DNA from: Bacillota bacterium
Lineage (GTDB): Bacteria; Bacillota; Clostridia; DSM-8532
Length of the DNA: 39,100 nt
Assembly (NCBI GenBank): GCA_022702935.2
Contig: JAKIML020000121.1
Span: forward strand, 1 to 39,100
Direction of reading: 5' to 3'
The translations under genes were made by a program, and so were the position numbers. Shown one piece after another: positions 3,889 to 36,144 of this stretch; position 1 is the first letter of the stretch, and every line of letters starts with the position of its first letter. Below the pieces are notes generated by a model, which saw only the letters and a list, made by a program, of their open reading frames with translations, was not told where the DNA came from and made no database searches.

Positions 3889-3919
3889 AAAGGAAACAAA
3901 CGCACTGGGGGATGCGCGC

Positions 3920-16562: not shown

Positions 16563-19142
16563 CTATTTCTTAAACAGGCACACTGTCCGCTGGGACATGG
16601 TGTCCGAAAGCAGGGTAAGCTGTCTGGCAGAGGTGTCATAGACCCGGATAATGTCGGAAAGCTCGGCCTCCGAGGGCTCCATGGCCGCTAAAAGATTATC
16701 AAGACCGTCCAGGAGCTGGGGCTGGTAGATCATCCTGTTGCCCGAATCAAAGAGAGCCACATAGAAGATGCCCGTCTCCACCAGATCCTGAAAGAAGTGG
16801 CTGCCAAAGGAGAGCTCGGGCATGTACCCGGCACCCTCATAGGATATCTCACAAAGCACCTTGATGGCGTTTATCTCCGCAAACCGCACCGGAACTCCCA
16901 GCTCGGGGGAGGTGGTACCCCAGCGGCCTGGGCCCATGAGCATGACCGATTTTTGGCTCTGCTTGAGGATGGTGTTCAGCTTTCCAATGGCCCGGGCCAC
17001 CCGATGCTTGGTGTTCATGGTGCTTAAGTAATAGTTCCTGGGATCCACCATTATGACCATATCAATGGGCTGGAAGATGGAGCCGCCCATAGTGGAGCCG
17101 GTCAGCGAGAACAGATGCTTTTCAGTGCCATTCCTGGGGATGGGAACCTTGATGCCCAAGCCCCGGGTCTGAAGGGGACGGCATTGGAGAAGGTTGACGG
17201 CGAAATCCCCCTGCTCCGAGAAATTGATGGTAAACTCAATATCCACCGGATACCGGTACTGGGCTTCAATGGTCTGAAGCATCTCCTTCAAATGCTTGAG
17301 GAGGGCCTCATCGTGAAGGATGCCGTCACAGGTGGTAAACAAAACCTGACCGTTGAGCCCCCGTTCTCTCAATCGGCTCTCGGCCTCGGTATCATGCTCG
17401 ATCATGCGGGCCTTATACCATTGGGGAAGCTTAGGGGCCAGGGACTCCAGCGAAACCACCTGGTGGGTATTCTGCTGGAGATTCAGGATATCCAGATACC
17501 GCTGGGAGAAGCGGCTGCGCTCAATTTGGCTGGCTAACGGGCGAAGGTCGGGCTTATCCAGGGATGCCACCCGGGGATAATCCCCGTCGGAGCGATCCAC
17601 GGCCCGGGTACCCAGACCCAGCACCAGGCGGACCATGCCCGCCTTGGGGTCAATAGCCTTGTTCCAGACATAGGAGTTATAGGAGTAGCCCACCCCTGCG
17701 GCACAGGGCATAAAAACATCATCAAACCTGGAGCCCGAAACCCGCTGGACCAGAATGGCCATCTGCTCGTCATTCTGATCCAGGCCCCGCTGCATGCGGT
17801 AGGCCAGGGCCGACTCGTCCATGGAGCTGGCGTAAACCTTTCTGACAGCGTCCTCAAATTCTTTGAACCGTTCCTCGGGACTGCCCGAATTGACACAGAA
17901 GATGGACTCGTATTTACCGGCAAAGGCATTGCCGAAGCTGTCCTCCAAAAGACTACTGGAGCGGACAATGATGGGGTTCTGGCCGAAATACTCCAGCATT
18001 CTTCTGAACTGCTCCCGAATACCGTTGGGGAAGACCCCGTTCAAAAGCTTATCTTTCAGCTCCCTGGCAGCCTGGAAATAGCCCTTGGGGGTTCGCTGCA
18101 TGATACGCAGCTTCCACCAGCCGTTTTGCACTAAATAGGTATAGAAGACGTCGGAGCCGATGTAGAAGGAATCATGGGGCTCCAAACGCATATAGAGGTC
18201 GGGGCGGATATTTTCCAGTATCTTTCGGGCCAGCAGCATACCGGTGGCCTTGCCGCCGATGCGGCCCGAGCCTATCATCCGCTGTTTGATCTTTAAGTAA
18301 TCGGCCAGCTTGAAATGGGAATGGATAAGGTCGGTCAACTGGGGCTCCCGGCCTATGAGCATGCGGCAGAGCTTGCTTAAGGTCTCGGATGAGCCTGCCG
18401 AACCCGTCTCCATTTCCTGCATGGCCTTAATAAAGAAGCGATCCCAATTGTCCAGGGACTGGTCGCTGTGACCAATGCCCTGATTGGCCATATGGGCGTA
18501 GAACTGGCTGGCGCTGATGCCGTCGGTGAGGGGCAGCAGGGCTTTGTTATCGTCGGAGAATTTATGGGGAAGGAACATGGTCTGGGAATAACGCTTCCAG
18601 ACCTTTACCGGATGGACATACATGCCCTGTCCGGTGCCGAACACGTCCAACAGGATCTGGGTGGTTTCGCGGATGGTGGCGATGGTTTCATAGGAATGCC
18701 GGTTTCGTAAAATTCCGAAGAAGGCCACCGTATCCAGCTCAAATAAATAGGGGCAGGTCACCCTGAAAAAATTGCCCATCATCAGGTCTGCGGCCCAGAT
18801 GGACTGAAGCTCGGACAGGCAGTCAAAGACATAGAAGGCTTCCCGGCCTTCCCTGGAGATAATCTCGTTGACTTTTACCGTAAAGCTCTCAAAGCCCGAA
18901 TCGGCATCCAGTTCATAGATTGTAAGGCCCGGCCTTGGAGAGAGCAGGGGGTCATGGGCCGCAAAGCGCATATAGATAATATTCCTGTTTTCTTCAATGG
19001 CCTTGGCCACAAAGGGCTGAACAAAGAACTGATAGTCGTCCAGATTGGACAACTGAAGCACCACATTGTCTCCCAGCCGGATAGAATCCAGCACCTGATC
19101 CAGGCCGTCCAGGCCCGAGTGTATTCTGTCAAAAGCCGCCAT
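16563..19142 (-). CDS. PEP/pyruvate-binding (PPDK-N type) ATP-grasp protein with degenerate KaiC-like N-terminus
   Basis: 859 residues. Residues 1-about 210 look like a RecA/KaiC domain (start RIHSGLDGLDQVLDSIRLGD, then IIYMRF and a YVFDCLSEL strand), but the Walker A loop is replaced by LSNLDDYQFF, so it probably does not bind ATP in the usual way. Residues about 290-655 carry the PEP synthase/PPDK ATP-grasp domain: GGKATGMLLARKIL (near 296), IIVRSSSLLEDSFGNAFAGK (near 390) and LLQCRPLQTRG (near 650). The phosphohistidine swivel domain and the PEP-binding barrel of true PEP synthase are absent; instead about 200 unassigned residues follow (GPGRWGTTSPELG and others). It may phosphorylate an unknown acceptor or bind a nucleotide as a sensor. 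GGGGGAG lies nine bases before the ATG. Single-gene unit with its own promoter. Confidence 0.8.
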   Translation of the reverse strand: MAAFDRIHSGLDGLDQVLDSIRLGDNVVLQLSNLDDYQFFVQPFVAKAIEENRNIIYMRFAAHDPLLSPRPGLTIYELDADSGFESFTVKVNEIISREGREAFYVFDCLSELQSIWAADLMMGNFFRVTCPYLFELDTVAFFGILRNRHSYETIATIRETTQILLDVFGTGQGMYVHPVKVWKRYSQTMFLPHKFSDDNKALLPLTDGISASQFYAHMANQGIGHSDQSLDNWDRFFIKAMQEMETGSAGSSETLSKLCRMLIGREPQLTDLIHSHFKLADYLKIKQRMIGSGRIGGKATGMLLARKILENIRPDLYMRLEPHDSFYIGSDVFYTYLVQNGWWKLRIMQRTPKGYFQAARELKDKLLNGVFPNGIREQFRRMLEYFGQNPIIVRSSSLLEDSFGNAFAGKYESIFCVNSGSPEERFKEFEDAVRKVYASSMDESALAYRMQRGLDQNDEQMAILVQRVSGSRFDDVFMPCAAGVGYSYNSYVWNKAIDPKAGMVRLVLGLGTRAVDRSDGDYPRVASLDKPDLRPLASQIERSRFSQRYLDILNLQQNTHQVVSLESLAPKLPQWYKARMIEHDTEAESRLRERGLNGQVLFTTCDGILHDEALLKHLKEMLQTIEAQYRYPVDIEFTINFSEQGDFAVNLLQCRPLQTRGLGIKVPIPRNGTEKHLFSLTGSTMGGSIFQPIDMVIMVDPRNYYLSTMNTKHRVARAIGKLNTILKQSQKSVMLMGPGRWGTTSPELGVPVRFAEINAIKVLCEISYEGAGYMPELSFGSHFFQDLVETGIFYVALFDSGNRMIYQPQLLDGLDNLLAAMEPSEAELSDIIRVYDTSARQLTLLSDTMSQRTVCLFKK

Positions 19143-19176
19143 GAGTGACTCCCCCTTTTGAACGGGCGTACCCTGA

Positions 19177-19198
19177 ATTCTCTTTGAGTATAGAGAAT
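19177..19198. repeat. Inverted repeat over the -10 box of the PPDK-N-like gene
   Basis: ATTCTC (19177-19182) and GAGAAT (19193-19198), perfect six-base arms ten bases apart, spanning the -10 hexamer. Its position fits a repressor operator; the protein is unknown. Confidence 0.4.
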
Positions 19199-19215
19199 AT
19201 CCCAGATTGCGTCAA
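19187..19215 (-). promoter_or_regulatory. Strong SigA-type promoter of the PPDK-N-like gene
   Basis: On the minus strand TTGACG (19210-19215), exactly 17 bases, TATACT (19187-19192): 5/6 matches in both boxes. Predicted start about 38 bases before the ATG at 19142. Confidence 0.8.
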
Positions 19216-19250
19216 TCCTCGGAAAGGAGCGGCCAAAGCATTGGATAACA

Positions 19251-19293
19251 GAAAGCCGGCCCCATGGCGCAAATATGCCCATGAAGGCCGGCT
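19251..19293 (-). terminator. Hairpin terminator of the glycosidase-like gene
   Basis: AGCCGGCC (19254-19261) and GGCCGGCT (19286-19293) pair perfectly, with further partial pairing (ATGGC/GCCCAT) inside. On the minus strand it is followed by TTTCTGTT, ten bases beyond the stop codon at 19303. Confidence 0.6.
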
Positions 19294-19302
19294 GAAGCAT
19301 CT

Positions 19303-20778
19303 TTACGAGGGTCTGTATGGTCCTGCCTCAGTCGGAGCATAGCGAATACGGAAGCGGGGCAGGGTTTTAAGGGTGGTGTAATAGTTGATGGCCCAGTCCT
19401 CGCCCTGGGAGGGGTCGTTCTCCCCCGAGGCGGGAGGGGCGAAGAGCTTAAAGGTCAGTGTGGCTGCTCCTTTCAGGGGCTTTTTGAAGAAGGCCGGCAT
19501 CACATCCACAGTGGTCACCCCGGGCTTTTTGTAGAACCAGTGACCGTTGATTTCAAAGACGGCATTGAGCTCGGGCTCATCGAACAGGACCTCGCAGAAG
19601 ACAGGATTCTTTTCAAAAACCAGGGGAATGGCCAGGCCGTCCGAGTCCTCGGTGCCGCCCCAGCGCAGGGTGACAGGGAGGCTGATTTCCTCACCCTGAC
19701 TAAACACGGGCAGGAAATAGGGATCATGGATGATCTCACGGTAGGCCTCCAGCACGGGCTGTTCGATGCCATTGTCGGGATTGTTGGGGTCCTCGATTTC
19801 AAGGCCTAGCCTTCCCCGATCCCGGAACTGGTAGAAGGTGATGCCCGACAGCCAGCGCCTGTCATCGTTCTTAATCAGCTCGTAGAAGTCCTTAATCATC
19901 TGGGCCTGATCATAGGGGCCCGTCACATCTCCGTCGGCATTGAGCTCCGAGAGTACCATGGGCTTTTTAATGCCCTCGTTATTGGCCAGGAATCTTTCGT
20001 AGGCAAAATGGTTTTCATCATAAATGTCTTCTACCAGGGCTCTCTTGTGGGTGTTGCCTCCCGGCTCGGCCACCGTATAGGGCCAACCCCAGTTGAGGGC
20101 CAGGTAATTGTCTCCCGACCAGATATCACATACCCTGATGGCCTCATTAAACTCATCCTCATAGGCCATTTTCCGGGTTCCGTTGACGGGGCCGCCGCCA
20201 ATACAGAGGATGGTTCTGATCTGAGGGGCTTCTTCCTTAATGATCTTATGGGCCCGCACAAAGAAATCGGCCACCTGCTGGTAGGAATAGCGTTTATTAA
20301 AGGCGAACCAGTCGCCGGTGGCTTCATGGTTAATGCGCAGCAGCAAACGGCCAAAGGGCTTAAGCTCACGGCCTATGGCCCGCAAATGGTCATCGGATAT
20401 GGCGCAGTCCATGGTCAGGGTCAGGGTCACATCCTGGCCGTGGGAGCGTACGTCGCGCATGGAACGGAAGGGCTCTGCATCGGGGGCGGTGCTTTTCTTG
20501 GCACCGTTGAGCCCGCATTCGTAGGGGAAGTAGTCGTCATAGGGATAGTCCCAGGCAAAGGCATTGGTGGCGTTTTCAAAAGCCTTGCTGGCTCTTGCCG
20601 GCCAGCCCTTGTCCAGGGGGTAATAGCAGAACATGAGATTAATGCTGCGATGGGGGCGTCCCAGCTTATGGAGAATATAATCCTGGTTCACATATTCACC
20701 GCGCTCGCTGCCGTCGCCTAAATCCACGGCGCAGGCCGCCGGCCCCATATGCAACTTAAAGGCTTTTAGTTCACTCAT
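19303..20778 (-). CDS. Putative clan GH-A glycoside hydrolase, family not assigned
   Basis: 491 residues, no signal peptide, so cytoplasmic. The region of about residues 30-370 reads like a (beta/alpha)8 retaining glycosidase: LLLRINHEATGDWF places a candidate acid/base Glu152 after His at the end of a strand, as in the HE motif of GH26, and KPMVLSELNADGD gives a candidate nucleophile Glu278, 126 residues later; ITFYQFRDRGRLG fits strand 8. The last ~120 residues look like a beta-sandwich (ISLPVTLRWGG, VFEINGHWFYKKPG). I could not place it in a named GH family. The ATG at 20778 has AAAGGAGGT upstream; an earlier start would include that site. It is divergent from the GH31-GH42-GH95 operon and shares the control region, so it likely acts on the same or a related glycan. 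Confidence 0.65.
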   Translation of the reverse strand: MSELKAFKLHMGPAACAVDLGDGSERGEYVNQDYILHKLGRPHRSINLMFCYYPLDKGWPARASKAFENATNAFAWDYPYDDYFPYECGLNGAKKSTAPDAEPFRSMRDVRSHGQDVTLTLTMDCAISDDHLRAIGRELKPFGRLLLRINHEATGDWFAFNKRYSYQQVADFFVRAHKIIKEEAPQIRTILCIGGGPVNGTRKMAYEDEFNEAIRVCDIWSGDNYLALNWGWPYTVAEPGGNTHKRALVEDIYDENHFAYERFLANNEGIKKPMVLSELNADGDVTGPYDQAQMIKDFYELIKNDDRRWLSGITFYQFRDRGRLGLEIEDPNNPDNGIEQPVLEAYREIIHDPYFLPVFSQGEEISLPVTLRWGGTEDSDGLAIPLVFEKNPVFCEVLFDEPELNAVFEINGHWFYKKPGVTTVDVMPAFFKKPLKGAATLTFKLFAPPASGENDPSQGEDWAINYYTTLKTLPRFRIRYAPTEAGPYRPS

Positions 20779-20812
20779 GGGAGACCTACCTCCTTTGGGA
20801 TTGCTGTCCATC

Positions 20813-20818
20813 ATTTTA
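20813..20818 (-). promoter_or_regulatory. Weak -10 candidate for the minus-strand glycosidase gene
   Basis: TAAAAT on the minus strand 35 bases before the ATG, with a poor -35 (TAGATT, 17 bases upstream). Would need an activator if real. Confidence 0.25.
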
Positions 20819-20878: not shown

Positions 20879-20896
20879 TTGATAGTCATCAAAATA
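20875..20896. repeat. 22-bp inverted repeat (operator candidate) in the divergent sugar promoter
   Basis: TATTTTGAT, four bases (AGTC), ATCAAAATA: perfect nine-base arms. A third related half-site AGTATTTTGA is at 20844-20853 and pairs with TCAAAATACT at 20889-20898. The cluster of sites in a divergent intergenic region is typical for a sugar-responsive regulator. Confidence 0.6.
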
Positions 20897-20992: not shown

Positions 20993-23311
20993 ATGAAGTT
21001 TACGGATGGTTTTTGGAGAAACCGGGACAATGTCTCGGTATATAATGCTGCCATGGCCTATGAAGCAGTATGTGATGACCAGTCGGTGACCGTGTATGCC
21101 CCATATGCCTATGTCACCAACCGGGGTCAGACCCTTCAGGGGCCGGTGATTACCGTGCGTTATTCCTCTCCCATGCCCGAGGTCATCAGGGTTCAGGCCT
21201 GGCATTACCAAGGGGCTATCAAGAACAAGCCCGGCTTTGCGCTCAGTGAGCAGGCCTGTCCGGTGGAGATCCGGGATCAGGAGGATGCCGTAGAACTCCA
21301 AAGCGGACGCCTGAAGGTGAGGATCAGGAAGGGTGAGGGCTGGCAGGTAGACTTCTATGACAATGATCGCTATCTGACAGGAAGCGGCTGGAGATGCCTG
21401 GGCTATGTGATTAATGAAGACAAGCAGGCCTATATGAAGGAGCAGCTCTCCCTGGAGGTGGGCGAATGCGTTTACGGCATGGGCGAGCGCTTCACCCCCT
21501 TTGTCAAGAACGGACAGGTGGTGGATGTCTGGAATGCCGATGGCGGAACCAGCTCGGAGCTGGCCTATAAAAATATACCCTTCTATTTGACCAACAATGG
21601 CTACGGTGTATTTGTCAATGATCCGGGGCTGGTTTCCTATGAGGTGGCCTCGGAGGTGGTGTCCCGGGTGCAGTTCAGCGTTCCCGGCGAGTATTTGGAA
21701 TACCTTATCATCAACGGCCCCACACCCAAGGAGGTGCTGGAAAGGTATACGGCATTGACGGGAAGGCCGTCGCTGCCCCCGGCCTGGAGCTTCGGGCTGT
21801 GGCTGACCACCTCCTTTGTGACCCAATACAATGAAGAAACCGTCAATCATTTTGTGGATGGTATGGCTCAGCGGGAGATTCCTCTCCATGTCTTCCATTT
21901 CGACTGTTTCTGGATGAAGGAATACAACTGGACCAACTTAGAATGGGACAAGCGGCAGTTCCCCGATCCCGAAGGCATGCTCAGACGCTTAAAAGACAGG
22001 GGACTTAAGATATGTGTGTGGATTAATCCCTATATTGCCCAGCGCTCCAGTCTTTTTACAGAAGGCATGGAAAAGGGGTATTTACTGAAAAAGCCTAATG
22101 GAGAAGTGTATCAGGTGGATACCTGGCAGCCGGGTATGGCCTTTGTGGACTTTACCAACCCCGAGGCCTGCAAGTGGTTTGCCGAAAAGCTTAAAGCCCT
22201 GGTGGATATGGGTGTGGACTGCTTTAAGACCGACTTTGGCGAGAGAATTCCCACCGACTGCGTCTATTATGACGGCTCTGATCCGGTGAAGATGCATAAT
22301 TATTACACCTATCTCTATAATAAGGTGGTCTTTGAGGTGCTGGAGGAGAAGCTGGGCCGGCAGGAGGCCATTTTATTCGCTCGCTCCGCCACCGCTGGCG
22401 GCCAGAAATTCCCCGTCCATTGGGGCGGCGACTGCACCGCCAATTATCGATCCATGGCCGAGAGCCTGCGGGGCGGTCTGTCCTTAAGCCTTTCGGGATT
22501 TGGCTTCTGGAGCCATGATATCTCCGGCTTTGAGAATACGGCCACACCCGATCTGTATAAGCGTTGGTCGGCCTTTGGCCTTCTGTCCAGCCATAGCCGG
22601 CTCCACGGCAATATGTCCTACCGGGTGCCCTGGCTCTTTGATGAAGAGGCCGTGGATGTTTTAAGGCATTTTACCCGGCTGAAGTTAAGCCTGATGCCCT
22701 ATCTCTACGCTGCAGCCCATGAGGCCACAGAAAAGGGCATTCCCATGATGCGGGCCATGCTGCTGGAATTCCCCGAGGATCCGGCCTGCGATTATCTGGA
22801 TCGGCAGTATATGCTGGGAGAAAGGATTCTTGTTGCGCCTATCTTTAACGACAAGGGCATGGCAAGCTACTATCTGCCCCAGGGAACCTGGACCCATCTT
22901 TTGTCCAATGCCACCGCACAGGGCGGTCAATGGCTGAGAGAGGTCTATGACTATTTCAGTCTTCCCCTTTGGGTGAGAGAAAACAGCCTCATTCCCACAG
23001 GAAGCAATCATGTACGTCCTGATTACGACTATACCGACAACACAGCTTTCCATCTTTTCGCGCTGAAGGATGGCGCTTCGGCTTCCTGTTTTGTCTATGC
23101 CGAGAAAGGGAATAACAGGATAGAGGCCAAAGCGATCCGGAAAGGGGAGACCATCAACTTCACGGTTACCACGGCCCATAAGCCCTGGACCCTTGTTCTG
23201 CGCAATATTGAAAAGGTATTCCGGGTGGAAGGCGGGGCCGCAGAACCCACCCCGCAGGGTCTTAGGATTGCTCCTGCGCATGGAAGCAGTACCCTTGTCA
23301 TTCATTTATAA
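20993..23311 (+). CDS. yicI: GH31 alpha-xylosidase (YicI/XylS type)
   Basis: Cleaves alpha-1,6-linked xylose from xyloglucan oligosaccharides such as isoprimeverose. 772 residues, the same length as E. coli YicI. Nucleophile Asp414 in CFKTDFGERIP and acid/base Asp480 in HWGGDCTANY, two residues off the YicI positions 416 and 482. HFDCFWMKEYNW and WINPYIAQRS form the +1/-1 subsite; the FDCFWMK stretch is typical of alpha-xylosidases rather than alpha-glucosidases. No signal peptide. I start at ATG 20993, where GGAGG is seven bases upstream; the upstream open frame is AT-rich leader with no ribosome site. First gene of a five-gene operon; 15 bases to the GH42 gene. Confidence 0.93.
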   Translation: MKFTDGFWRNRDNVSVYNAAMAYEAVCDDQSVTVYAPYAYVTNRGQTLQGPVITVRYSSPMPEVIRVQAWHYQGAIKNKPGFALSEQACPVEIRDQEDAVELQSGRLKVRIRKGEGWQVDFYDNDRYLTGSGWRCLGYVINEDKQAYMKEQLSLEVGECVYGMGERFTPFVKNGQVVDVWNADGGTSSELAYKNIPFYLTNNGYGVFVNDPGLVSYEVASEVVSRVQFSVPGEYLEYLIINGPTPKEVLERYTALTGRPSLPPAWSFGLWLTTSFVTQYNEETVNHFVDGMAQREIPLHVFHFDCFWMKEYNWTNLEWDKRQFPDPEGMLRRLKDRGLKICVWINPYIAQRSSLFTEGMEKGYLLKKPNGEVYQVDTWQPGMAFVDFTNPEACKWFAEKLKALVDMGVDCFKTDFGERIPTDCVYYDGSDPVKMHNYYTYLYNKVVFEVLEEKLGRQEAILFARSATAGGQKFPVHWGGDCTANYRSMAESLRGGLSLSLSGFGFWSHDISGFENTATPDLYKRWSAFGLLSSHSRLHGNMSYRVPWLFDEEAVDVLRHFTRLKLSLMPYLYAAAHEATEKGIPMMRAMLLEFPEDPACDYLDRQYMLGERILVAPIFNDKGMASYYLPQGTWTHLLSNATAQGGQWLREVYDYFSLPLWVRENSLIPTGSNHVRPDYDYTDNTAFHLFALKDGASASCFVYAEKGNNRIEAKAIRKGETINFTVTTAHKPWTLVLRNIEKVFRVEGGAAEPTPQGLRIAPAHGSSTLVIHL

Positions 23312-23326
23312 AGGGAGGTTTGTTCT

Positions 23327-25372
23327 ATGGTATCCCTTGAGTTTCCTGTTGTCTATTTTGGCGGGGACTATAATCCCGATCAATGGCCCAGGGAGATTTG
23401 GCATAAGGATATGGAACTGTTTAAAAAAGCCCATGTCAATATCCTGACCCTGCCGGTGTTCAGTTGGGCTTTACTTCAGCCCGCAGAGGATGTTTATAAC
23501 TTTGAATGGCTGGATGAGCTTTTGGACATGATTCACGCCCAGGGCATCAAGGTCTGCCTGGCCACGGCGACAGCGGCCCAACCCGCCTGGATGTCCAGAA
23601 AATACCCCGAGATCCTGCCCGTGGACTTTGAAGGCAGGAAGAGAAAGCACAGCGGGCGGGTCAACTTCTGCCCCAACAGCCCGGTGTTCAGGGAGTTCTC
23701 GGGCAGGCTTGTCCGGAAAATGGCTGAGCGCTATAAGGATCATCCGGCCCTGGCCCTCTGGCATGTGGGTAATGAATATGGAACCTACTGCTATTGCGAG
23801 ACCTGCGAAAAGGCCTTCCGGGAATGGCTGAAAAAGCGTTATGGAAGCATTGAGGAGCTTAACCGGAGATGGAACATGAATTTCTGGGGCCATACCGTCT
23901 ATGACTGGGAGGATATTGTAGCCCCCTCGGGCTTAAGCGAGGTATGGAGGGACGGCCATCTTGAAAGAACCACCTTCCAACCCATGGTCCTGGATTACAA
24001 GCGCTTTATGTCCGAATCCAGCCTGGCCTGCTATAAAAACGAGTATGATATCATAAAAGGCATATGCCCTGATATTCCTGTCACCACCAACCTGATGGGC
24101 GCCTTTAAGCCCCTGGACTATTTTAAATGGGCCGAGCATATGGACATCGTGTCCTGGGACAATTATCCCGGACTGAAGGACTCGCCGGGGAGCATTGCCT
24201 TTAACCATGATCTGATGCGGGGCCTCAAAGGAGGCCAATCCTTCCTCCTGATGGAACAGACCCCCAATCAGACCAACTGGCATCCCTATAACAGCCTCAA
24301 GCGGCCGGGCGTCATGCGCCTGCTGAGCTATCAGGCCATGGCCCATGGCGCCGATTCGGTCATGTACTTCCAGATGCGGCAGTCCATCGGCAACTGCGAG
24401 AAATTCCACGGCGCTTTGATTGAGCATGCGGGCCATGAGCATACCCGGGTGTTCAGGGAATGCGCCCAACTGGGCCAGGAGCTTGAAAACCTCAAGGGTG
24501 TCATTGGTGCACGGCTTAAGGCAAGAGCGGCCATTCTGTTTGACTGGGAAAACTGGTGGGCTGTGGAGCTCTCCAGCGGGCCCACTGTCCAGCTCAGCTA
24601 TGTGCATCAGGTTAAAAAGTATTATGAGGCGCTCTTTAAGCGGAATATCACCGTGGATATCATAAAGCCCGGGGATGATTTATCCCCTTATGCCCTGGTC
24701 ATTGCCCCCGTCCTCTATATGCTGAAGCCGGGGGTGGCCGAGAGCCTCAAAGACTTTGTAGAAAACGGCGGAACCTTCCTGACCACCTTTATGAGCGGTT
24801 TGGTGGATGAAAACGACAGGGTCACCACCCTGGGATATCCGGGCGAGCTTAAGGAACTGCTGGGCATCTGGGTGGAGGAGATTGACGCTCTGGAGCCCGG
24901 CATGTGCAACAGTATCCGCAAGACCCAAGCCGCAGAGGCTCTTTCCGCCCTGACCAGGGAGCGGTATGCCTGCGCCATGCTCTGTGATGTGATGGAGGCT
25001 CAGGGGGCCGAGGTTTTGGCTGTTTATGAAAATGATTTCTATGCGGGAAAGCCTGCGGTGACCCGAAACGCCTATGGCAGGGGCCGGGCCTACTATGTGG
25101 GCACCGATTCGGAGGAAGACTTTATCCAGGAGCTGTTAGAGGCCATCTGTGATGAGTGCGGCATCATCCCCGACTTCCAGGTGCCCCAAGGCGTGGAGAT
25201 CACCCAGCGCTTTAAGGGTGACACCTGCTATACTTTTGTGTTGAACCATCTTACTGAAAAGGTTATTGTGGATCTGAACAACCTGACCGGCAAAGACCTT
25301 ATCACCGGAAAAACCGTGGCCCAAAGGCTTGAACTGGAGCCCAAAGGGGTCGCGGTGCTGGAAGAAAAGTAG
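23327..25372 (+). CDS. GH42 beta-galactosidase
   Basis: Retaining beta-galactosidase (some members act on alpha-L-arabinopyranosides). 681 residues: GH42 barrel, trimerisation domain (about 390-600) and short C-terminal beta domain. Acid/base Glu150 in HVGNEYG and nucleophile Glu310 in LLMEQTPNQTNW. The zinc cluster is complete with C115, C155, C157 and C160, like the Cys106/150/152/155 set of the Thermus enzyme. No signal peptide. AAGGGAGGT lies before the ATG; nine bases separate its stop from the next ribosome site and gene. Beside an alpha-xylosidase and alpha-fucosidase its likely task is removing galactose from xyloglucan side chains. Confidence 0.93.
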   Translation: MVSLEFPVVYFGGDYNPDQWPREIWHKDMELFKKAHVNILTLPVFSWALLQPAEDVYNFEWLDELLDMIHAQGIKVCLATATAAQPAWMSRKYPEILPVDFEGRKRKHSGRVNFCPNSPVFREFSGRLVRKMAERYKDHPALALWHVGNEYGTYCYCETCEKAFREWLKKRYGSIEELNRRWNMNFWGHTVYDWEDIVAPSGLSEVWRDGHLERTTFQPMVLDYKRFMSESSLACYKNEYDIIKGICPDIPVTTNLMGAFKPLDYFKWAEHMDIVSWDNYPGLKDSPGSIAFNHDLMRGLKGGQSFLLMEQTPNQTNWHPYNSLKRPGVMRLLSYQAMAHGADSVMYFQMRQSIGNCEKFHGALIEHAGHEHTRVFRECAQLGQELENLKGVIGARLKARAAILFDWENWWAVELSSGPTVQLSYVHQVKKYYEALFKRNITVDIIKPGDDLSPYALVIAPVLYMLKPGVAESLKDFVENGGTFLTTFMSGLVDENDRVTTLGYPGELKELLGIWVEEIDALEPGMCNSIRKTQAAEALSALTRERYACAMLCDVMEAQGAEVLAVYENDFYAGKPAVTRNAYGRGRAYYVGTDSEEDFIQELLEAICDECGIIPDFQVPQGVEITQRFKGDTCYTFVLNHLTEKVIVDLNNLTGKDLITGKTVAQRLELEPKGVAVLEEK

Positions 25373-25387
25373 AAAGGAAGCGTGATC

Positions 25388-27703
25388 ATGGCAACATCCG
25401 CCTTATGGTATGAAAAACCGGCCGAGGACTGGAACTGGGCGCTCCCCATTGGCAATGGCCGTTTGGGAGCCATGGTCTTTGGCGGTGTCAGCCGAGAGGT
25501 GCTTCAGCTCAATGAAGACAGCGTCTGGTACGGCGGACCCCGAAACCGGAACAATCCCGATGCCCAAAAGTACCTTCCCGAGATCCGGAGACTTTTGATG
25601 GATGGACAGGTGGCAGAGGCAGAACGGCTTGCCGTGCTGGCGTTAACAGGTGTCCCTGAAAGCCAGCGCCATTACCAGCCCTTGGGGGATCTGGTTCTGG
25701 ACTTTGACTACTCGGAGGAGATACAGCTTAAGGATCGAAGCCCTCTGGGGTTACCGCCCCAGGCAGAATTCACCCATTATCGCAGAGAGCTGGATCTGGA
25801 CAAGGCCCTGGTGACGGTAAGCTATCGGGTCAATGGGGTGGGCTATACCCGAACCCTCTTTGCCTCGGCGGTGGATCAGGTCATCACCGTAAGGCTTTCC
25901 GCCGATACACCCGGGAAGCTTACCTTCAACGCCCATTTTGAGCGGGAGCGCTGGCTGGATGCCACCCAGGCGCTTAAGGATCATGGTCTTCTGATGACGG
26001 GTAGCTGCGGCGGCAAGGGGGCTGTGAGCTTCTGCGCCGGTGTCAGCGCCCTATGCCAGGGGGGGAACATCTCTACCATTGGCGATACCCTGAGGGTGGA
26101 AAAGGCCGATTCTGTATTGCTGTTGATCTCCGGCAATACCAGCTTTCGCCATAAGCGCTATAAGGATGTTTGTATAAAGCAGATGAAGCAGGCCCTGGCC
26201 AAGGGCTATACCCGGCTCTATCAGGACCATGTGGTCGATTACGGCAGCCTGTTTCATCGGGTGCATTTTGAACTGGGGAGCCCGGAAGATACGGAGACCA
26301 GTCTGGAGCATCTTCCCACCCATGAAAGGCTGGAACGGGTAAAGCATGGGGAGCAGGATCTGGATCTTGTGTCCCTCTATTTCCAATATGGCCGGTATCT
26401 TTTGATAGCCAGCAGCCGGCCTGGTTCCCTTCCGGCAAACCTTCAGGGCCTGTGGAACAAGGATTTCCACCCGCCATGGGGGAGCAAGTACACCATCAAC
26501 ATCAATACCCAGATGAACTACTGGCCCGCCGAAGTATGCCATCTTGCCGAATGCCATCTTCCGCTGTTCGACCTTATTGAGCGCATGCGGGAGCCGGGAC
26601 GGGTGACGGCCCGGGAGATGTATAACTGCAGGGGCTTTGTGGCCCATCACAACACTGATATTTGGGCCGACACAGCGCCCCAGGATGTCTGGATTCCTGC
26701 CACCTACTGGCCCATGGGCGCGGCCTGGCTCTGTCTTCACCTCTGGGAGCATTACCTGTTCAACCTGGACAAAAACTTTTTAACCAGGGCCTATCCCATC
26801 ATGCGTGAGGCGGCCGAGTTCTTCGTGGATTTCCTGATTGAGAATGAAAAGGGGTATCTGGTGACCTGTCCGTCCCTGTCCCCCGAGAATGTCTATCGGT
26901 TGGACAACGGCCAGGAGGGCTGTCTGTGCGCGGGAAATGCCATGGACAGCCAGATCCTTCATGAGCTTTTCTCAGCCTGTATCGAGGCGGCAGAGATTCT
27001 GAAGGTGGATGAGGCTTTCACTGCCACTCTCAGCACCATGAGAAGCAAGCTTCCCAAAACCGCCATAGGAAGGCATGGTCAGATCCGGGAATGGCTGGAG
27101 GACTATGAGGAGCCGGAACCCGGACACCGCCATATATCCCAGCTCTTTGCCCTCTATCCGGGGCATATGATCTCCTGGGAGAAAAATCCCGAGCTGGCCC
27201 AGGCCGCCATAAGGACCCTGGAGCGGCGCCTGGCCCATGGCGGAGGTCATACGGGCTGGAGCAGAGCCTGGATCATCAATCACTGGGCCAGGCTTAAGGA
27301 GGGGGAGAAGGCCTGGGAGAATATCCTTGCGCTCTTGAAGCACTCCACCCTGCCCAATCTCTTTGACAACCACCCGCCCTTCCAGATAGACGGCAATTTC
27401 GGCGGTACTGCCGGCATTGCCGAAATGCTTCTCCAAAGCTGGGACAACGAAATTGAAATATTGCCTGCTCTGCCCAGGACCTGGTCGGAGGGTGTCATCC
27501 ATGGGCTGCGGGCCCGGGGAGGCCTTATTGTGGATATGGAATGGCAGAGGGGGAAATTGGTCAAAGCCAGCCTGTTAGCAACACAGGAAAGACGGGTTAA
27601 AATAAAGTATGAAGCGTATTGTCTGGATGTCCAGCTCCCGTCGCAAAAGCGTGTCACCCTAAACTTCGCCATGGATCGAGGCTTAGGTATTCTTGAGGAG
27701 TAA
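25388..27703 (+). CDS. GH95 alpha-L-fucosidase (or alpha-L-galactosidase)
   Basis: Inverting enzyme releasing alpha-1,2-linked L-fucose (some members L-galactose). 771 residues. The N-terminal beta-sandwich opens with WALPIGNGRLGAMVFGG and LNEDSVWYGGP, classic GH95 signatures. In the (alpha/alpha)6 barrel the Asn pair N371 and N373 (ININTQMNYWPAE) activates water with Asp668 (DGNFGGTAGIAEMLLQ). The acid Glu should lie in the IREWLEDYEE segment, which I cannot pin to one residue. No signal peptide. ATG 25388 is preferred to GTG 25382 because AAAGGAAG is at ideal distance from the ATG only. Third gene of the operon. Confidence 0.92.
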   Translation: MATSALWYEKPAEDWNWALPIGNGRLGAMVFGGVSREVLQLNEDSVWYGGPRNRNNPDAQKYLPEIRRLLMDGQVAEAERLAVLALTGVPESQRHYQPLGDLVLDFDYSEEIQLKDRSPLGLPPQAEFTHYRRELDLDKALVTVSYRVNGVGYTRTLFASAVDQVITVRLSADTPGKLTFNAHFERERWLDATQALKDHGLLMTGSCGGKGAVSFCAGVSALCQGGNISTIGDTLRVEKADSVLLLISGNTSFRHKRYKDVCIKQMKQALAKGYTRLYQDHVVDYGSLFHRVHFELGSPEDTETSLEHLPTHERLERVKHGEQDLDLVSLYFQYGRYLLIASSRPGSLPANLQGLWNKDFHPPWGSKYTININTQMNYWPAEVCHLAECHLPLFDLIERMREPGRVTAREMYNCRGFVAHHNTDIWADTAPQDVWIPATYWPMGAAWLCLHLWEHYLFNLDKNFLTRAYPIMREAAEFFVDFLIENEKGYLVTCPSLSPENVYRLDNGQEGCLCAGNAMDSQILHELFSACIEAAEILKVDEAFTATLSTMRSKLPKTAIGRHGQIREWLEDYEEPEPGHRHISQLFALYPGHMISWEKNPELAQAAIRTLERRLAHGGGHTGWSRAWIINHWARLKEGEKAWENILALLKHSTLPNLFDNHPPFQIDGNFGGTAGIAEMLLQSWDNEIEILPALPRTWSEGVIHGLRARGGLIVDMEWQRGKLVKASLLATQERRVKIKYEAYCLDVQLPSQKRVTLNFAMDRGLGILEE

Positions 27704-27709
27704 ATAGCT

Positions 27710-29317
27710 ATGCTGAGCGTGATCTTGATTGACGATGAGCCCTCCATTCGGGAGGGCCTAAAATCCATCATTGACTGGGAGGCTCATGGTTTCACCATTT
27801 GCGGCGAGGCCTCCAACGGAATGGAAGGCCTTGAAAAAATATGCCTCCTGAATCCCGACCTGGCTATTGTGGACATCAAGATGCCGGTCATGGATGGCTT
27901 TCAGATGATTTCAGAACTGAGAAAGCTCGGAAACTCCTGTGAATATATCATTCTTTCGGCCTATTCGGACTTCAAGTATGCCCAGTCGGCCATTGACCTT
28001 AGCATCGGCTCCTATATCCTCAAGCCCATTGAGCAAGAGGAGCTCATTGAGAAGATCACCAAGGTAAGGGAGACAGTTCTACAAAAGCGTGAGGCCAAGC
28101 AGGCCCTGGACTTAAGCCTGTCCCTTTCCCGGAGTGAGATGATTCAGTCCCTGGTTCTGGGTCAGCCCATGACCGGGGACTGTGAAGAGAAAATGGGCCT
28201 CTGCGGTCTGGATTTCCCCTGGAAAACCTATCAGGTCACTCTTATTGATATTGAAAACAACGGCTTTGATGCGCCAAACCTTCGCCAGAAGATTATGCAG
28301 GAGGTGGAACATCTTCTCACCTGCTATGAGCAGGGGTATGTGTTCAGCATTAACCAGTACATAGGTCTGCTCACCAAAAAGCTGAGCAACTGCCATTATT
28401 CCCGTATCTTAAGCGACCTCCATGAGCGTATTTTAAAGCTGACCGGCCTGGATGTTTTCATCTCCCTGGGGCAGCCTGAGAAGAGCCTGGACAGTATAAA
28501 GCTGTCCTACCAAACCGCCTGCCGGCTGCTGGACAAGAAGTTCATCTATGGCTATAAAAAGATTATTACCTATCAGCAGATTCCCCAGAAAGAGGACGGC
28601 AGGAAAAGCCCCTTAAACCGTTGGGATATCGACGCCGTTACACATGAACTGTATCGGGCCATTGATGTGGAGAACAGCGAAGCCATCAATGATCAGCTTG
28701 AGGCCATCAAGGACTATTTTATTGCCTCCGAGAGTGATGAGTCCTTTATCAAAATCCAGTATTCCAATATTTATACGGCCATTGTCAGCAGGCTCACCAA
28801 CAGTAATGAGGCCCTGAGGCAGACCTTAAGCATCCAGCAGAGCGTCCTGACCGAGATCTGCACCAAAAGCAGCCTCCAGGAGCTTCATGGGTATATTAAG
28901 TTCGTTCTGATTGCCCTAAGTGAGGAGGTGGCACGGATGAGGCCTGCCGATCCTGTCAAAAAGATTCTGGATTATGTGGAACGCCATTACAGTGAGGACT
29001 TAAAGCTCGAAAGTCTGGCGGCCCTGTTCCACTATAACAGTGCCTACTTAGGAAAGCTCATCCGCAGCAAAACAGGGGTCCAGTTCAGCGCCTATCTGGA
29101 AAGGCTGCGCATTGAAAAGGCCAAGGAGCTTTTAGAGGCAGGGTATAAGGTCTATGAGGTGGCGCAAAGGACGGGATACCGCTATATTGATTACTTCTAC
29201 AGAAAGTTCAAAAAGCATGTGGGTGTCTCTCCGACCGATTACAAGGGTAAAAAATCAGGCGCTGCTACGCCGGGTGCAGGAGGGAACGAGGATGGTACAG
29301 GCTCCGAAAAGATTTAA
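27710..29317 (+). CDS. YesN-type response regulator, REC plus AraC HTH
   Basis: 535 residues. N-terminal receiver domain with acidic pocket LIDDE and phosphorylation site Asp55 (AIVDIKMPVMDG); Lys in SYILKPIEQEEL. A long helical middle part (about 130-420) is typical of the YesN group. The C-terminal AraC-type double HTH (about 425-520) contains LESLAALFHYNSAYLGKLI and VYEVAQRTGYRYIDYFYRKF. It lies six bases after the GH95 gene and overlaps the kinase gene by 26 bases, so it is its cognate partner. It probably activates the glycosidase operon and perhaps the transporter in response to an external sugar. Confidence 0.93.
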   Translation: MLSVILIDDEPSIREGLKSIIDWEAHGFTICGEASNGMEGLEKICLLNPDLAIVDIKMPVMDGFQMISELRKLGNSCEYIILSAYSDFKYAQSAIDLSIGSYILKPIEQEELIEKITKVRETVLQKREAKQALDLSLSLSRSEMIQSLVLGQPMTGDCEEKMGLCGLDFPWKTYQVTLIDIENNGFDAPNLRQKIMQEVEHLLTCYEQGYVFSINQYIGLLTKKLSNCHYSRILSDLHERILKLTGLDVFISLGQPEKSLDSIKLSYQTACRLLDKKFIYGYKKIITYQQIPQKEDGRKSPLNRWDIDAVTHELYRAIDVENSEAINDQLEAIKDYFIASESDESFIKIQYSNIYTAIVSRLTNSNEALRQTLSIQQSVLTEICTKSSLQELHGYIKFVLIALSEEVARMRPADPVKKILDYVERHYSEDLKLESLAALFHYNSAYLGKLIRSKTGVQFSAYLERLRIEKAKELLEAGYKVYEVAQRTGYRYIDYFYRKFKKHVGVSPTDYKGKKSGAATPGAGGNEDGTGSEKI

Positions 29318-31139
29318 GCTTCTTAAGAATTACTTGGCCAAGGTTGAGATCAAAAAGCAGCTTTACATCGTGTACCTCATCGCATGTATTTTGCCCATCC
29401 TGATCATTGGTATCTTCTTGCTTATCAATACTAAAAATCTGGTGCTCAATCAGCACTATTCACAGGCCTCGGCCGATAACACCCGTGTGCGCAGCATTTT
29501 GCTGGACACCTCTATTTCTCTGACCAATATGTCGGACAACCTTTTCCAGGATGACGCCCTGCAGAGGGTCCTGTCGGCTGAGTATCCCACGGCCGAGGAT
29601 TCCTATGCGGCCTGCCGCAGGTATTCGCTTCTGGACTATTTCGCGGCCAACTATACCGAAATTTCGGCCATGTATCTGTACTATAACAACAAGACCATGC
29701 ATGACTACGGGCGGTTCAAGGCCATAACCCCTGAGATCATGGCCACTGACTGGTATCAAAAGGCCGTATCCAGCTACGGCTATCACTGGATGACCGCCAC
29801 CCGGGAGGATGTGTTTCAAAACTCAGTCAGTGAGCTGGCCCTGATCCGAAAAATCCCCGTCCATGGCTCCAGGGACTTTGCCATTCTGTTTATCAGTGTC
29901 AGCAATAACTATCTTAAATCCAGAATCAATACCAGCCCCCTGGTGACCGAGGCCACGGTCAACGATAATCCGTTGTTTTACTCCAGCCTTCGGGATAATA
30001 TCGGGGGTAAACTGGGCTTTGAGATTGACTATGAACAACAGTATTTTACCTATGAGGGTATTGGAAGGTATCATGGGGAACAGGCCCTCATGCATATTTC
30101 AACGCTTGCGCCCATCAAAAGCAGGGACAAGCTCTATATTGTGACCCTGGACTATGAGGCGGTATCCAATACAACCCGCATTATCAGAATCTGCCTGGCC
30201 ATTGTATTTGTGAGCCTCCTGGTGCCCCTTATCATGGTTTACCTCTTTTCAAAAACCTTCAGCCGCAGAATTAAGACCCTCAGAGAGGAGATGCATAAGG
30301 TCAGCATCGGGCAGTTGGACATTATTGACGACTTTAACGGCAATGACGAGCTGGTGGATCTCTATCGGGATTTGAAGGTGATGATTGAGGCCATTAAGAG
30401 CCGGGATGAGGAGATATACAAGGAGAAGATTGCCAGGCAGCAGCTTATCAACCACCAGCAGGAGATGCAGTTTGAAATGCTGGCAAGCCAGATCAACCCT
30501 CATTTTCTGTTCAACACCCTTGAAACCATAAGGATGAAGGCCCATTGTGCAGGGGATGAGGAAGTGGCCACGGGCATTAAGCTGTTGGGAAAATCCATGC
30601 GCCATGTGCTGAAAATACGGGGAAAGGTGACCTCCTTAAAGTCGGAGCTGGAGTATATTGCCGTGTATCTGGACATCCAAAAGCTTCGTTTTAAGGACAG
30701 AATCAATTATGAGATTCAGGTATCCCCGGAGATTGATACCGAAGCCTATAAAATCCTGCCGCTATTGCTCCAGCCCATTGTGGAGAATGCCTTCATCCAT
30801 GGTCTTGAGAGTATTGAAAGCGGCGGGTTTATCCATATTCAAATTGCACGGGAGAAGGATTATTTGGTTGTTTCGGTGACCGATAATGGTGCGGGCATCT
30901 CTGAAAAGGAGCTCAACGCGTTAATGGAGCGTCTTAACTGCGATGAAATGCCTTCGGGTGAAAAGAGTATGGGGCTTTTAAATATCAGCCAGCGCATCAA
31001 GCTGTTCTACGGCAAGGATTATGGCCTGGATATTGAAAGTACCCTTGGCAAGGGCACCTGTGTTAGGGTTCGTCTCCCGCTTCACTTTAACCATGAGGAG
31101 CAGATATCCCAGACCTTTTTTGCACATATTCCGGAATAG
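29292..31139 (+). CDS. YesM-type sensor histidine kinase
   Basis: 615 residues. Short cytoplasmic tail, transmembrane helix (about 24-44, LYIVYLIACILPILIIGIFL), a large extracellular sensor domain (about 45-290), second helix (about 297-320), HAMP linker, then the LytS/YesM kinase domain. Phospho-acceptor His404 in ASQINPHFLFNTLE, N box LLQPIVENAFIHGL, G1 DNGAGIS and G2 GLLNISQR. The ATG at 29292 has AGGAGGG upstream and lies inside the end of the regulator gene. Last gene of the operon. YesM-type kinases often sense via a transporter binding protein; the lipoprotein gene is next door but convergent. Confidence 0.92.
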   Translation: MVQAPKRFKLLKNYLAKVEIKKQLYIVYLIACILPILIIGIFLLINTKNLVLNQHYSQASADNTRVRSILLDTSISLTNMSDNLFQDDALQRVLSAEYPTAEDSYAACRRYSLLDYFAANYTEISAMYLYYNNKTMHDYGRFKAITPEIMATDWYQKAVSSYGYHWMTATREDVFQNSVSELALIRKIPVHGSRDFAILFISVSNNYLKSRINTSPLVTEATVNDNPLFYSSLRDNIGGKLGFEIDYEQQYFTYEGIGRYHGEQALMHISTLAPIKSRDKLYIVTLDYEAVSNTTRIIRICLAIVFVSLLVPLIMVYLFSKTFSRRIKTLREEMHKVSIGQLDIIDDFNGNDELVDLYRDLKVMIEAIKSRDEEIYKEKIARQQLINHQQEMQFEMLASQINPHFLFNTLETIRMKAHCAGDEEVATGIKLLGKSMRHVLKIRGKVTSLKSELEYIAVYLDIQKLRFKDRINYEIQVSPEIDTEAYKILPLLLQPIVENAFIHGLESIESGGFIHIQIAREKDYLVVSVTDNGAGISEKELNALMERLNCDEMPSGEKSMGLLNISQRIKLFYGKDYGLDIESTLGKGTCVRVRLPLHFNHEEQISQTFFAHIPE

Positions 31140-31236: not shown

Positions 31237-31272
31237 AAAAAAGCCTGCCCAAGAAATTCTACTTAGGCAGGC
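31237..31272 (-). terminator. Strong terminator between the two convergent sugar operons
   Basis: GCCTGCCCAAG (31243-31253) and CTTAGGCAGGC (31262-31272) pair with one mismatch, loop of eight. The minus strand then reads TTTTTTC, so it ends the transporter operon. On the plus strand TTTATTTT follows two bases later, so it may also stop the kinase transcript. Confidence 0.85.
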
Positions 31273-31290
31273 CGTTTATTTTATGAGCGA

Positions 31291-33084
31291 TTATTTTGCG
31301 TTTGCTATAGCTTCTTCACGAGCCTTTCTGGTGTTTTCAGCTATCTTGACGTCAAAGGCGAAGACTTCGTCATAGCCAAGACCCTTAACTGTATCCTGCA
31401 TATCCTTCAGCAGTGCTTCGAATTCGGCATCATTAGCGGCAAATACCATCTTCCAGGAGTTAGCCTTAATGATTTCACGGCACTGGTTGCGGAGGGTATC
31501 GATTTCAGCAGGAGCTGCTTCAGGAATGTAGCTGTTGCCGGGAGCCACCGTATAGGCATTGTGCTGACTCAGATAATCCAGCGTGGTTTCGGCCTTCATG
31601 AATTCCTTCCAGGACTTGTCAAGAGGTGTGGTGTTGGATTCCAGGTAGGAAGGCCACAGTGAGTAGTTATAGGGTGCATTGTTTAAAGGATTGATTTCCA
31701 TGGTGGAAACGGCCTGGTAGTTGAGCTGTGAAATACCGTCCTTATAGGTGCCGCCGCCCCAGGATTCGGGCATCATCAGAGTCTGATCGCCCGAGAAGGC
31801 TTTCACACCGAACTCAGTCAGGACAGGGCGTCCGTCCTTCATTTCCCAGGTCAGGCCTTCGGGACCGCAGGAACCGGTGGTCTGAGCACAGGACATCATA
31901 ACGCCTTCAGGAGAATAGAGCCAGTCAATAAAGTCTACCATTCTCTGAGGATCCTGAGCCTTGGAGCCAACGGCGATGCAGTACTTGTTACCGGTAGGAT
32001 TGCAGCCGTAGGAGAATATCTTCATATCTTCCATGGGTGCAATCATGAAGCCCTTGCCTTCAGCCTTATGCTCAACGGTGTTGTAAATCTGGCCCTGCCA
32101 TGGCCAGGGAGACCAGTGAACAGCACCATCGGCGTATTTGGCAGCCAGGGTATCCCAGTTCTGTGTGGGGGAGTCGGGATCCAGGATACCAAGCTGGTTG
32201 GCCTCATAGAAGAATCTCAAAGAGCGAATGTATTCGGAATCGCTGTCAATAATGCTTTGTACGGTTTTACCGTCGGCGGAAACCAGAGCAAAGCCGATTT
32301 CGTCATAGCCATACATACAAGCGGGCTGCTTGGCCAGACACATCATGTTGCCGTCCCAATCCTTAAAGAGGGAGATGGCATAGGCCTTTTTGCCGCTGTC
32401 GCTGGTGGGGTACTTATCCTGCATTTCCTTGAGAATAGGAAGCAGATCCTCGAGGGTTCTGATTCTGGGAGCACCCAGTGCCATGTAGTAATCCCAGCGC
32501 AGGTAGGGACCATAGGTCAGGTCATTGCCTTCAGAGGGAGTCAGCGGGGATAAGGATGATACCTGTGAGGGAATGGCATAAATCCTGTCCGAGCCGATAA
32601 GGTTTTTCAGCATATCGGTGGCCTGAGGATATTTGGATAAGTACTGGCTCTTAACCACCATATCGGTGATGTCCATGAGGAGCCCTGCCTTTACGGTATC
32701 GGCAAGTCTTCCGTTTTCGGCACCCAGTGTAACGATATCACCCAGGAAACCTGCTGCTGAGCGGGTCTGGAAGAGGGTGTCGCCGCCGCCGGCCACGTTG
32801 GGAGCGATAATGTTGATTTCCATATTAAATCTGTCTTTTATAACTTTGCCGAACCAACCCGATTGAATGCCCTGATAGTTTGCCTGGCTGTTGAACATAT
32901 CGATGGTGATGAACTTATCATAGGCTTTATCAGCGGGTGTTGATGTGTCCGAAGGTGTGGTGTTTGAGCTGTTGGAAGGTGTCGGTGTTGGATTGCTGGC
33001 AGGCTGTGAGCCGCAGGCGCCAAGACCAAGGATCATAGTCAGGACCAGAACCAAGCTCAGAACCCTCAATCCGTTTTTTTTCAT
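31291..33084 (-). CDS. Sugar ABC transporter lipoprotein (LplA-type binding protein)
   Basis: 597 residues. Lipoprotein signal peptide with lipobox LGAC, Cys24 as the lipidation site, followed by a Ser/Thr/Pro/Asn-rich spacer (about 26-52) and a large extracellular solute-binding domain (SBP family 1, LplA/YtcQ group, typically 500-600 residues). Repeated aromatic residues (GPYLRWDYYMALG, HWSPWPWQGQ) suggest a carbohydrate site. AAAGGAGGAG is eight bases before the ATG. Last gene of the lplB-ytcP-type operon, 64 bases after the second permease. The ligand is not known; the neighbours point to plant oligosaccharides. Confidence 0.92.
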   Translation of the reverse strand: MKKNGLRVLSLVLVLTMILGLGACGSQPASNPTPTPSNSSNTTPSDTSTPADKAYDKFITIDMFNSQANYQGIQSGWFGKVIKDRFNMEINIIAPNVAGGGDTLFQTRSAAGFLGDIVTLGAENGRLADTVKAGLLMDITDMVVKSQYLSKYPQATDMLKNLIGSDRIYAIPSQVSSLSPLTPSEGNDLTYGPYLRWDYYMALGAPRIRTLEDLLPILKEMQDKYPTSDSGKKAYAISLFKDWDGNMMCLAKQPACMYGYDEIGFALVSADGKTVQSIIDSDSEYIRSLRFFYEANQLGILDPDSPTQNWDTLAAKYADGAVHWSPWPWQGQIYNTVEHKAEGKGFMIAPMEDMKIFSYGCNPTGNKYCIAVGSKAQDPQRMVDFIDWLYSPEGVMMSCAQTTGSCGPEGLTWEMKDGRPVLTEFGVKAFSGDQTLMMPESWGGGTYKDGISQLNYQAVSTMEINPLNNAPYNYSLWPSYLESNTTPLDKSWKEFMKAETTLDYLSQHNAYTVAPGNSYIPEAAPAEIDTLRNQCREIIKANSWKMVFAANDAEFEALLKDMQDTVKGLGYDEVFAFDVKIAENTRKAREEAIANAK

Positions 33085-33148
33085 AATAAACTCCTCCTTT
33101 ATGATGTTCTATTAAAATCAGAGCGGACTCTGATTAAAACCGACAGGA

Positions 33149-34078: not shown

Positions 34079-34104
34079 TTCGAAACCTCCTTAAGCCTTT
34101 GCGA

Positions 34105-36134: not shown

Positions 36135-36144
36135 TGGCATCACC

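Follow-up and report, generated by a model that had tools for sequence, protein, structure and literature searches.

The 39,100-nucleotide contig JAKIML020000121.1 of a Bacillota bacterium (GCA_022702935.2; GTDB lineage Clostridia, DSM-8532), hereafter the window, carries at positions 20993-31139 five genes which, together with a convergent set of importer genes, very probably constitute a fucosidase-bearing version of the Gram-positive xyloglucan-oligosaccharide locus (XygS/XygR) known from Ruminiclostridium cellulolyticum. The use of fucosylated xyloglucan oligosaccharides, a target already put forward in an initial annotation of this DNA, is a well-supported prediction based on the gene set, the clade of the sensor kinase and the content of related loci. 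The window is contig 45 of an assembly of 3.17 Mb in 132 contigs, rated 99.98% complete.

The enzyme operon

Open reading frame (ORF) analysis and a Pfam scan delineate a tight plus-strand operon encoding three glycoside hydrolases (GH31, GH42 and GH95), a response regulator and a YesM-type sensor kinase, separated in this order by 15, 9, 6 and -26 bp. It begins at an ATG (20993) preceded by GGAGG and ends at 31139. A longer GH31 ORF opening with TTG at 20879 was rejected as merely the mechanical first start, the ATG after GGAGG being preferred, and the mechanical kinase start at 29154 was corrected to 29292. Pfam E-values are 2.4e-100 for GH31, 8.2e-155 for GH42 and 1.1e-186 for GH95; the regulator combines Response_reg with an AraC helix-turn-helix domain and the kinase His_kinase with HATPase. 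The operon borders, and its ending in a two-component pair, are thus those given by the initial annotation. The features of the locus are as follows.

20993-23311, plus strand: GH31 alpha-xylosidase, YicI type, 772 amino acids (Pfam, PDB and NCBIfam matches)
23327-25372, plus strand: GH42 beta-galactosidase, 681 amino acids (Pfam, PDB match)
25382-27703, plus strand: GH95 alpha-L-fucosidase (or alpha-L-galactosidase), 773 amino acids (Pfam, PDB match)
27710-29317, plus strand: response regulator, receiver and AraC-type DNA-binding domain, D55 (Pfam)
29292-31139, plus strand: sensor histidine kinase, XygS-like, 615 amino acids, two membrane-like segments, H404 (Pfam, tree)
31242-31273, minus strand: terminator-like hairpin of 12 pairs between the two convergent operons
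31291-33084, minus strand: solute-binding lipoprotein of an ATP-binding cassette (ABC) importer, lipobox LGAC read by eye (Pfam)
33149-34078, minus strand: ABC permease 2 (Pfam)
34105-35019, minus strand: ABC permease 1 (Pfam)
35247-36143, minus strand: candidate cupin-AraC regulator upstream of the importer genes

The GH31 protein aligns with Escherichia coli YicI over its whole length (1047 bits) and scores 1305 bits against the NCBIfam alpha-xylosidase equivalog NF007940, for which the cut-off is 606. Its residues D414, D480 and C305-F306 align with D416, D482 and C307-F308 of YicI, of which we take the two aspartates to be catalytic and the Cys-Phe pair to have a functional role. The protein is hence predicted to be a YicI-type alpha-xylosidase with its key residues in place, and the likeness in length and catalytic Asp positions noted in the initial annotation is borne out. 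The GH42 protein, whose best PDB relative is 3tts (898 bits), has the TIM barrel, trimerisation and C-terminal domains of a GH42 beta-galactosidase, and its Glu150 and Glu310, which presumably are the catalytic pair, sit at the catalytic motifs.

The best PDB relative of the GH95 protein is 7kmq (648 bits), which is XacAfc95, the fucosidase of a Xanthomonas xyloglucan system (PMC8245568). All three GH95 Pfam domains are present, and N373, N375 and D670 align with N397, N399 and D690, the catalytic positions described for XacAfc95 (PMC8245568). The debated specificity position carries a threonine (T371). This residue was presented in a 2015 paper as a possible mark of L-galactose specificity in GH95 (PMC4491172), while the mutagenesis account of a 2021 paper reports that XacAfc95 and Blon_2335, both L-fucosidases, also have Thr and that the T395H mutation left the preference unchanged (PMC8245568). 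Since Thr is present in L-fucosidases too, the Thr/His site is not diagnostic, and the enzyme likely acts on L-fucose, L-galactose being a conceivable substrate.

None of the GH31, GH42 and GH95 proteins has a hydrophobic N-terminus or signal peptide, as the initial annotation had stated. With the three enzymes in the cytoplasm, import of oligosaccharides is therefore needed. It had also been claimed that the enzymes match the Fuc-Gal-Xyl order of a xyloglucan side chain exactly: this is correct for the linkages but not for the genes, whose order along the operon (GH31-GH42-GH95, that is Xyl-Gal-Fuc) is the reverse.

The two-component pair and related loci

Loci from other genomes (L numbers; genomes, G numbers) came from searches with GH31, GH95 and binding proteins and are not a random sample; L152 and L153 among them play no further part in the analysis. 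When the 320-residue sensor region of the window kinase was searched against 1708 ORFs of at least 200 amino acids from these loci (11 repeat loci left out, some overlaps counted twice), it matched the kinases of L175, L172, L176, L174, L177, L092 (a gene present also as L068) and L168, with E-values between 1.8e-70 and 6.3e-14. A single further kinase, that of L031, followed at E 3.7e-5. All seven kinases matched below 1e-13 adjoin YicI-type GH31 genes. In a tree of 22 chosen kinases, the window kinase falls into a clade of eight with exactly those seven (support 99/98), with the L175 kinase as its sister (100/100). These results support its assignment as an XygS-like kinase and place the pair in the XygS/XygR type, the kinase by clade and sensor region, the regulator by identity only.

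The gene order of L172 is exactly that of Ccel_2451-2458 of R. cellulolyticum, and its neighbour is a PF00291 gene, a family that includes tryptophan synthase beta. In the published description, Ccel_2451-2455 code for GH42, an AraC-like regulator, a sensor, GH3 and GH31; the next three genes, Ccel_2456-2458, supply two permeases plus a binding protein whose dissociation constant for XXXG is 3.65 nM; Gal42A, Xyl31A and Glu3A act in the cytoplasm, and a strain with an interrupted binding-protein gene was unable to grow on xyloglucan (PMC4780118). The legend of Fig. 12 in the same paper names tryptophan synthase beta as a flanking gene and counts alpha-fucosidases among the genes shown in related clusters (PMC4780118). 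XygS/XygR has been described as the positive regulator of this locus (PMC8576529). L172 is accordingly taken to be the R. cellulolyticum locus.

Seven proteins are shared between the window and L172 and align over nearly their whole length, with identities of 57.4% for GH31, 44.7% for GH42, 35.6% for the regulator, 37.2% for the kinase, 66.0% and 56.5% for the permeases and 42.2% for the binding protein. Both loci thus combine GH31, GH42, an AraC-type regulator, a sensor kinase, two permeases and a binding protein, with cytoplasmic enzymes (from sequence in the window). The window locus differs in that GH3 is absent, GH95 lies inside the enzyme operon, the two operons are convergent instead of divergent and the importer falls in another sub-branch. 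It belongs to a published kind and appears to be a variant that would work like the R. cellulolyticum-type locus, not a strict copy of it.

Other known or related loci share parts of this layout. L174 (G198), L177 (G231) and L176 (G332) have GH31, GH42, the two-component pair, the importer and GH95 within 20 kb, but GH3 is present and their GH95, only about 42% alike, is found past the binding-protein gene and on the strand of the importer. In Anaerocellum bescii, the published gene descriptions place a xyloglucan-oligosaccharide ABC importer (Athe_2052-2057) beside GH31, with a putative fucosidase (Athe_2072) not far away, whereas GH42 (Athe_1927) is elsewhere (PMC12710961). The Xanthomonas system, as described, directs GH95, a beta-galactosidase and GH31 at the same side chain; it differs in being Gram-negative and in having GH35 instead of GH42, a GH31 with a PA14 domain and its own GH74 (PMC8245568). 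L091 of Ruminiclostridium cellobioparum was rejected as a counterpart: apart from a YicI-type GH31, none of the ORFs in this stretch matches a protein of the window locus. Other GH31 places in that genome adjoin importers but are only about 28% alike.

A YicI-type GH31 (E 1e-200 or better) is found in 41 of the 343 genomes of the class, the window's own included, and these 41 genomes were searched for GH95 at E 1e-40 or better. GH95 lies no more than 10 kb from GH31 in six of the 40 others (G114, G340, G332, G231, G279 and G198; three genera); G230, at 10.8 kb, was left out of the count. Uniform placement of the 36 GH95 places would give about 0.3 such cases, the true background being higher because carbohydrate genes cluster. 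A search that began from GH95 found both genes together in two further loci, L092 and L093. More broadly, other genomes repeatedly combine GH31 and an importer with a two-component pair and with GH42, GH95 or both, and the gene grouping is more than chance. Two YicI-type GH31 frames look broken, one in G102 (C12:13146-15146, one inner TGA) and one in L190 (6769-9200, two separate frames).

The families that cover the side chain vary among these loci. L175, the locus of the sister kinase, contains GH42 (truncated at the border of the stretch), a BD-FAE esterase-like gene, a GH29 alpha-L-fucosidase (2991-4466), GH31 and GH3, of which GH42, GH3 and GH31 were named by similarity to reference proteins. 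In L160 and L161, GH95 is followed by a protein of 1057-1058 amino acids, which Pfam identifies in L161 as a GH2 beta-galactosidase, and then by GH31, a pair of permeases and a binding protein. The L161 locus extends further to a GH74-like protein (17675-19900) with 18 PDB matches, of which 12 are named as xyloglucan enzymes of the GH74 kind. In L093, a GH3 that is cut short precedes GH31, GH95, a binding protein and a kinase, and the importer there is divergent. That the Fuc-Gal-Xyl linkages appear to be kept while the families change is the best evidence pointing to fucosylated xyloglucan as the glycan. In a GH95 tree of 88 rows, built with FastTree only and leaving out both the duplicates L012 and L068 and all rows shorter than 600 amino acids or less than 38% identical, the GH31-linked genes occupy several places; on this rough tree five changes are counted, at least four of them forced by starred branches. 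GH95 has thus probably joined such loci more than once.

Importer, genomic context and competing explanations

The importer genes (31291-35019) are convergent with the enzyme operon and 151 bp from it, and comprise the adjacent binding protein and two permeases. Together with the cupin-AraC regulator behind them (to 36143), they had been overlooked in the initial annotation. In a permease tree, the window permeases join those of xyloglucan loci in a superclade of 11 rows (100/100) that holds L172, L174, L176, L177, L093, L160 and L161, all adjoining YicI-type GH31, as well as L135 and L137, importers from the window's own family. Proximity and this superclade favour xyloglucan oligosaccharides as the probable cargo, which the tree of the three joined importer proteins does not confirm. 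A PDB sequence search with the binding protein gave nothing at E 0.001 or better, and an AlphaFold model built from 3 rows (mean predicted local distance difference test score 38.5) was discarded. A binding protein matching at E 1e-90 or better occurs in 6 of 11 other genomes of the family. Among 13 other genomes of the genus, a YicI-type GH31 was found in one only (G014), and the best binding-protein match reached E 1.3e-14.

The initial annotation had noted that no endo-enzyme or GH3 beta-glucosidase lies in the window and had suggested that the cell may be a scavenger. This view, based on absences in a single 39 kb window, finds no support, and the whole assembly leans against it. The assembly encodes one GH5 with a lipoprotein-type N-terminus, whose best PDB matches are the beta-1,3-1,4-glucanase 4x0v and the endoglucanase 1edg, with xyloglucanases further down the list, making it a candidate endo-glucanase. 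One GH1 beta-glucosidase, at C67 and without a hydrophobic N-terminus, scores above the TIGR03356 cut-off. The search of the remaining genome for an endo-xyloglucanase, which that annotation had proposed, hence yielded the GH5 candidate and no GH9 match; GH74, GH44, GH12, GH16 and GH94 were not searched for. As to fucose and xylose catabolism, for which a search had likewise been proposed, xylose isomerase is present, and the fucose side is taken up below.

Several observations weigh against the XygS/XygR assignment or parts of it. The kinases of L093, L163 and L183 are also near YicI-type GH31, yet fall outside the kinase clade. In 34 of the 40 other genomes, the 10 kb on either side of GH31 contain no GH95, in some cases with a contig end close by; therefore this GH31 alone says little. 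The window GH42 scores higher with 3tts (phmmer) than with the L172 GH42 (574 bits, BLASTP), on scales that differ. The genome yielded no Glu3A-like GH3: of its two PF00933 hits, one is a NagZ-like lipoprotein scoring below its NCBIfam cut-off and the other a beta-xylosidase-like fragment truncated by a contig end. The L-fucose isomerase domain PF07881 also had no match in the genome, in a search whose control was positive in 3 of 14 known genomes and which did not extend to other fucose routes; therefore the freed fucose may not be used. When the three importer proteins are joined, the window groups with the same-family L135 and L137 (100/99), and a clade of the window with the four L172-type importers is rejected (approximately unbiased test, p 0.0075), so that the importer shares the superclade of the known xyloglucan importer without being in its branch; importers adjoining GH31 occupy three other places of that superclade. 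The L135 importer adjoins GH39, GH51-like, GH127, apiosidase-like and beta-helix genes, assigned by Pfam only. Finally, GH95 could remove L-galactose.

The importer trees lend themselves to an explanation, possible but rather unlikely, in which the enzymes and kinase serve xyloglucan while the convergent importer takes another glycan, for instance arabinose-rich oligosaccharides, and xyloglucan pieces enter through another importer. The grouping with L135, which lies beside arabinosidase-type genes, and the rejected clade speak for it, but the superclade is made up largely of importers beside YicI-type GH31, the importer is 151 bp from the operon, and neither L135, with its Pfam-only gene set, nor L137, for which the beta-helix neighbour alone was scanned, fixes a glycan. 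It is less probable still that GH95 is an alpha-L-galactosidase, or a dual L-Gal/L-Fuc enzyme, directed at L-galactose-bearing xyloglucan or complex xylan. The missing PF07881 match would fit such an activity; the Thr-bearing L-fucosidases and the unchanged preference of T395H discussed above, the closeness to XacAfc95 and the GH29 fucosidase of the sister-kinase locus L175 all argue for L-fucose. GH95 and GH42 both include enzymes for host glycans, and the pair could in principle act on the Fuc-Gal termini of mucin or milk oligosaccharides. Such a role is very improbable here, as a YicI-type alpha-xylosidase has no known place in it, the neighbours and the two-component system resemble those of xyloglucan loci, and GH29 has no match in the genome.

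An Rfam scan of the window gave no match reaching the gathering score. Promoter-like hexamers before GH31 and the importer genes were too weak to be used (26 sites in the region against 16.9 expected, standard deviation 4.1); the one in front of the importer also overlaps the ribosome site there. There is no sign of recent gene transfer, third-position GC being 0.60-0.68 in locus genes and 0.62-0.72 in the flanking genes tested, although a YicI-type GH31 is, as noted above, scarce in the rest of the genus. Upstream of the operon, a 503-amino-acid minus-strand ORF (19303-20814) has no Pfam or NCBIfam match at E 0.001. The gene at 16563-19142 encodes an 859-amino-acid protein with a central PPDK/PEP-synthase (phosphoenolpyruvate synthase) ATP-binding domain, for which PEP synthase matches are partial only, and that at 3920-6166 an FtsA/PilM-like protein whose C-terminal half gives a short Mut7-C ubiquitin match, an unusual combination.

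Proposed mechanism and implications

For the favoured xyloglucan-oligosaccharide locus, gene content and order, compartment signals, catalytic-site residues, homology and gene co-occurrence are observed; from these we infer the activities, cargo, ATPase, induction and order of action. Xyloglucan fragments would arise outside the cell, through its own GH5 or through neighbours, to be captured by the binding lipoprotein (31291-33084) and imported whole by the two permeases, powered by a shared ATPase presumably encoded elsewhere. In the cytoplasm, the terminal alpha-1,2-L-fucose would be cut by GH95 and the beta-galactose by GH42, after which GH31 would release alpha-xylose at the non-reducing end. 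Backbone glucose could then be trimmed by a beta-glucosidase encoded elsewhere, for which GH1 is the best candidate, so that GH31 may act again. The kinase would sense the oligosaccharide and, via the regulator, turn on both operons.

A more speculative extension, which we consider improbable, is a fucose-keyed branch. A fucosidase (GH95 or GH29) and GH42 are near the kinase in the sub-branch formed by the window and L175, and the sensor, along with the separate importer lineage, may prefer fucosylated oligosaccharides, the fucose being cut but not catabolised by the usual isomerase route. If so, fucose could be shed and feed neighbours.

The text of the 2016 paper on the R. cellulolyticum locus leaves open whether Gram-positive importers take fucosylated xyloglucan oligosaccharides (PMC4780118), and the window locus offers a ready test. 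The coverage of the same side-chain linkages by different families (GH95/GH29, GH42/GH2) supports annotation by locus over annotation by single gene. The locus described here would add another bacterial family to the range of a characterised uptake system for plant fibre.

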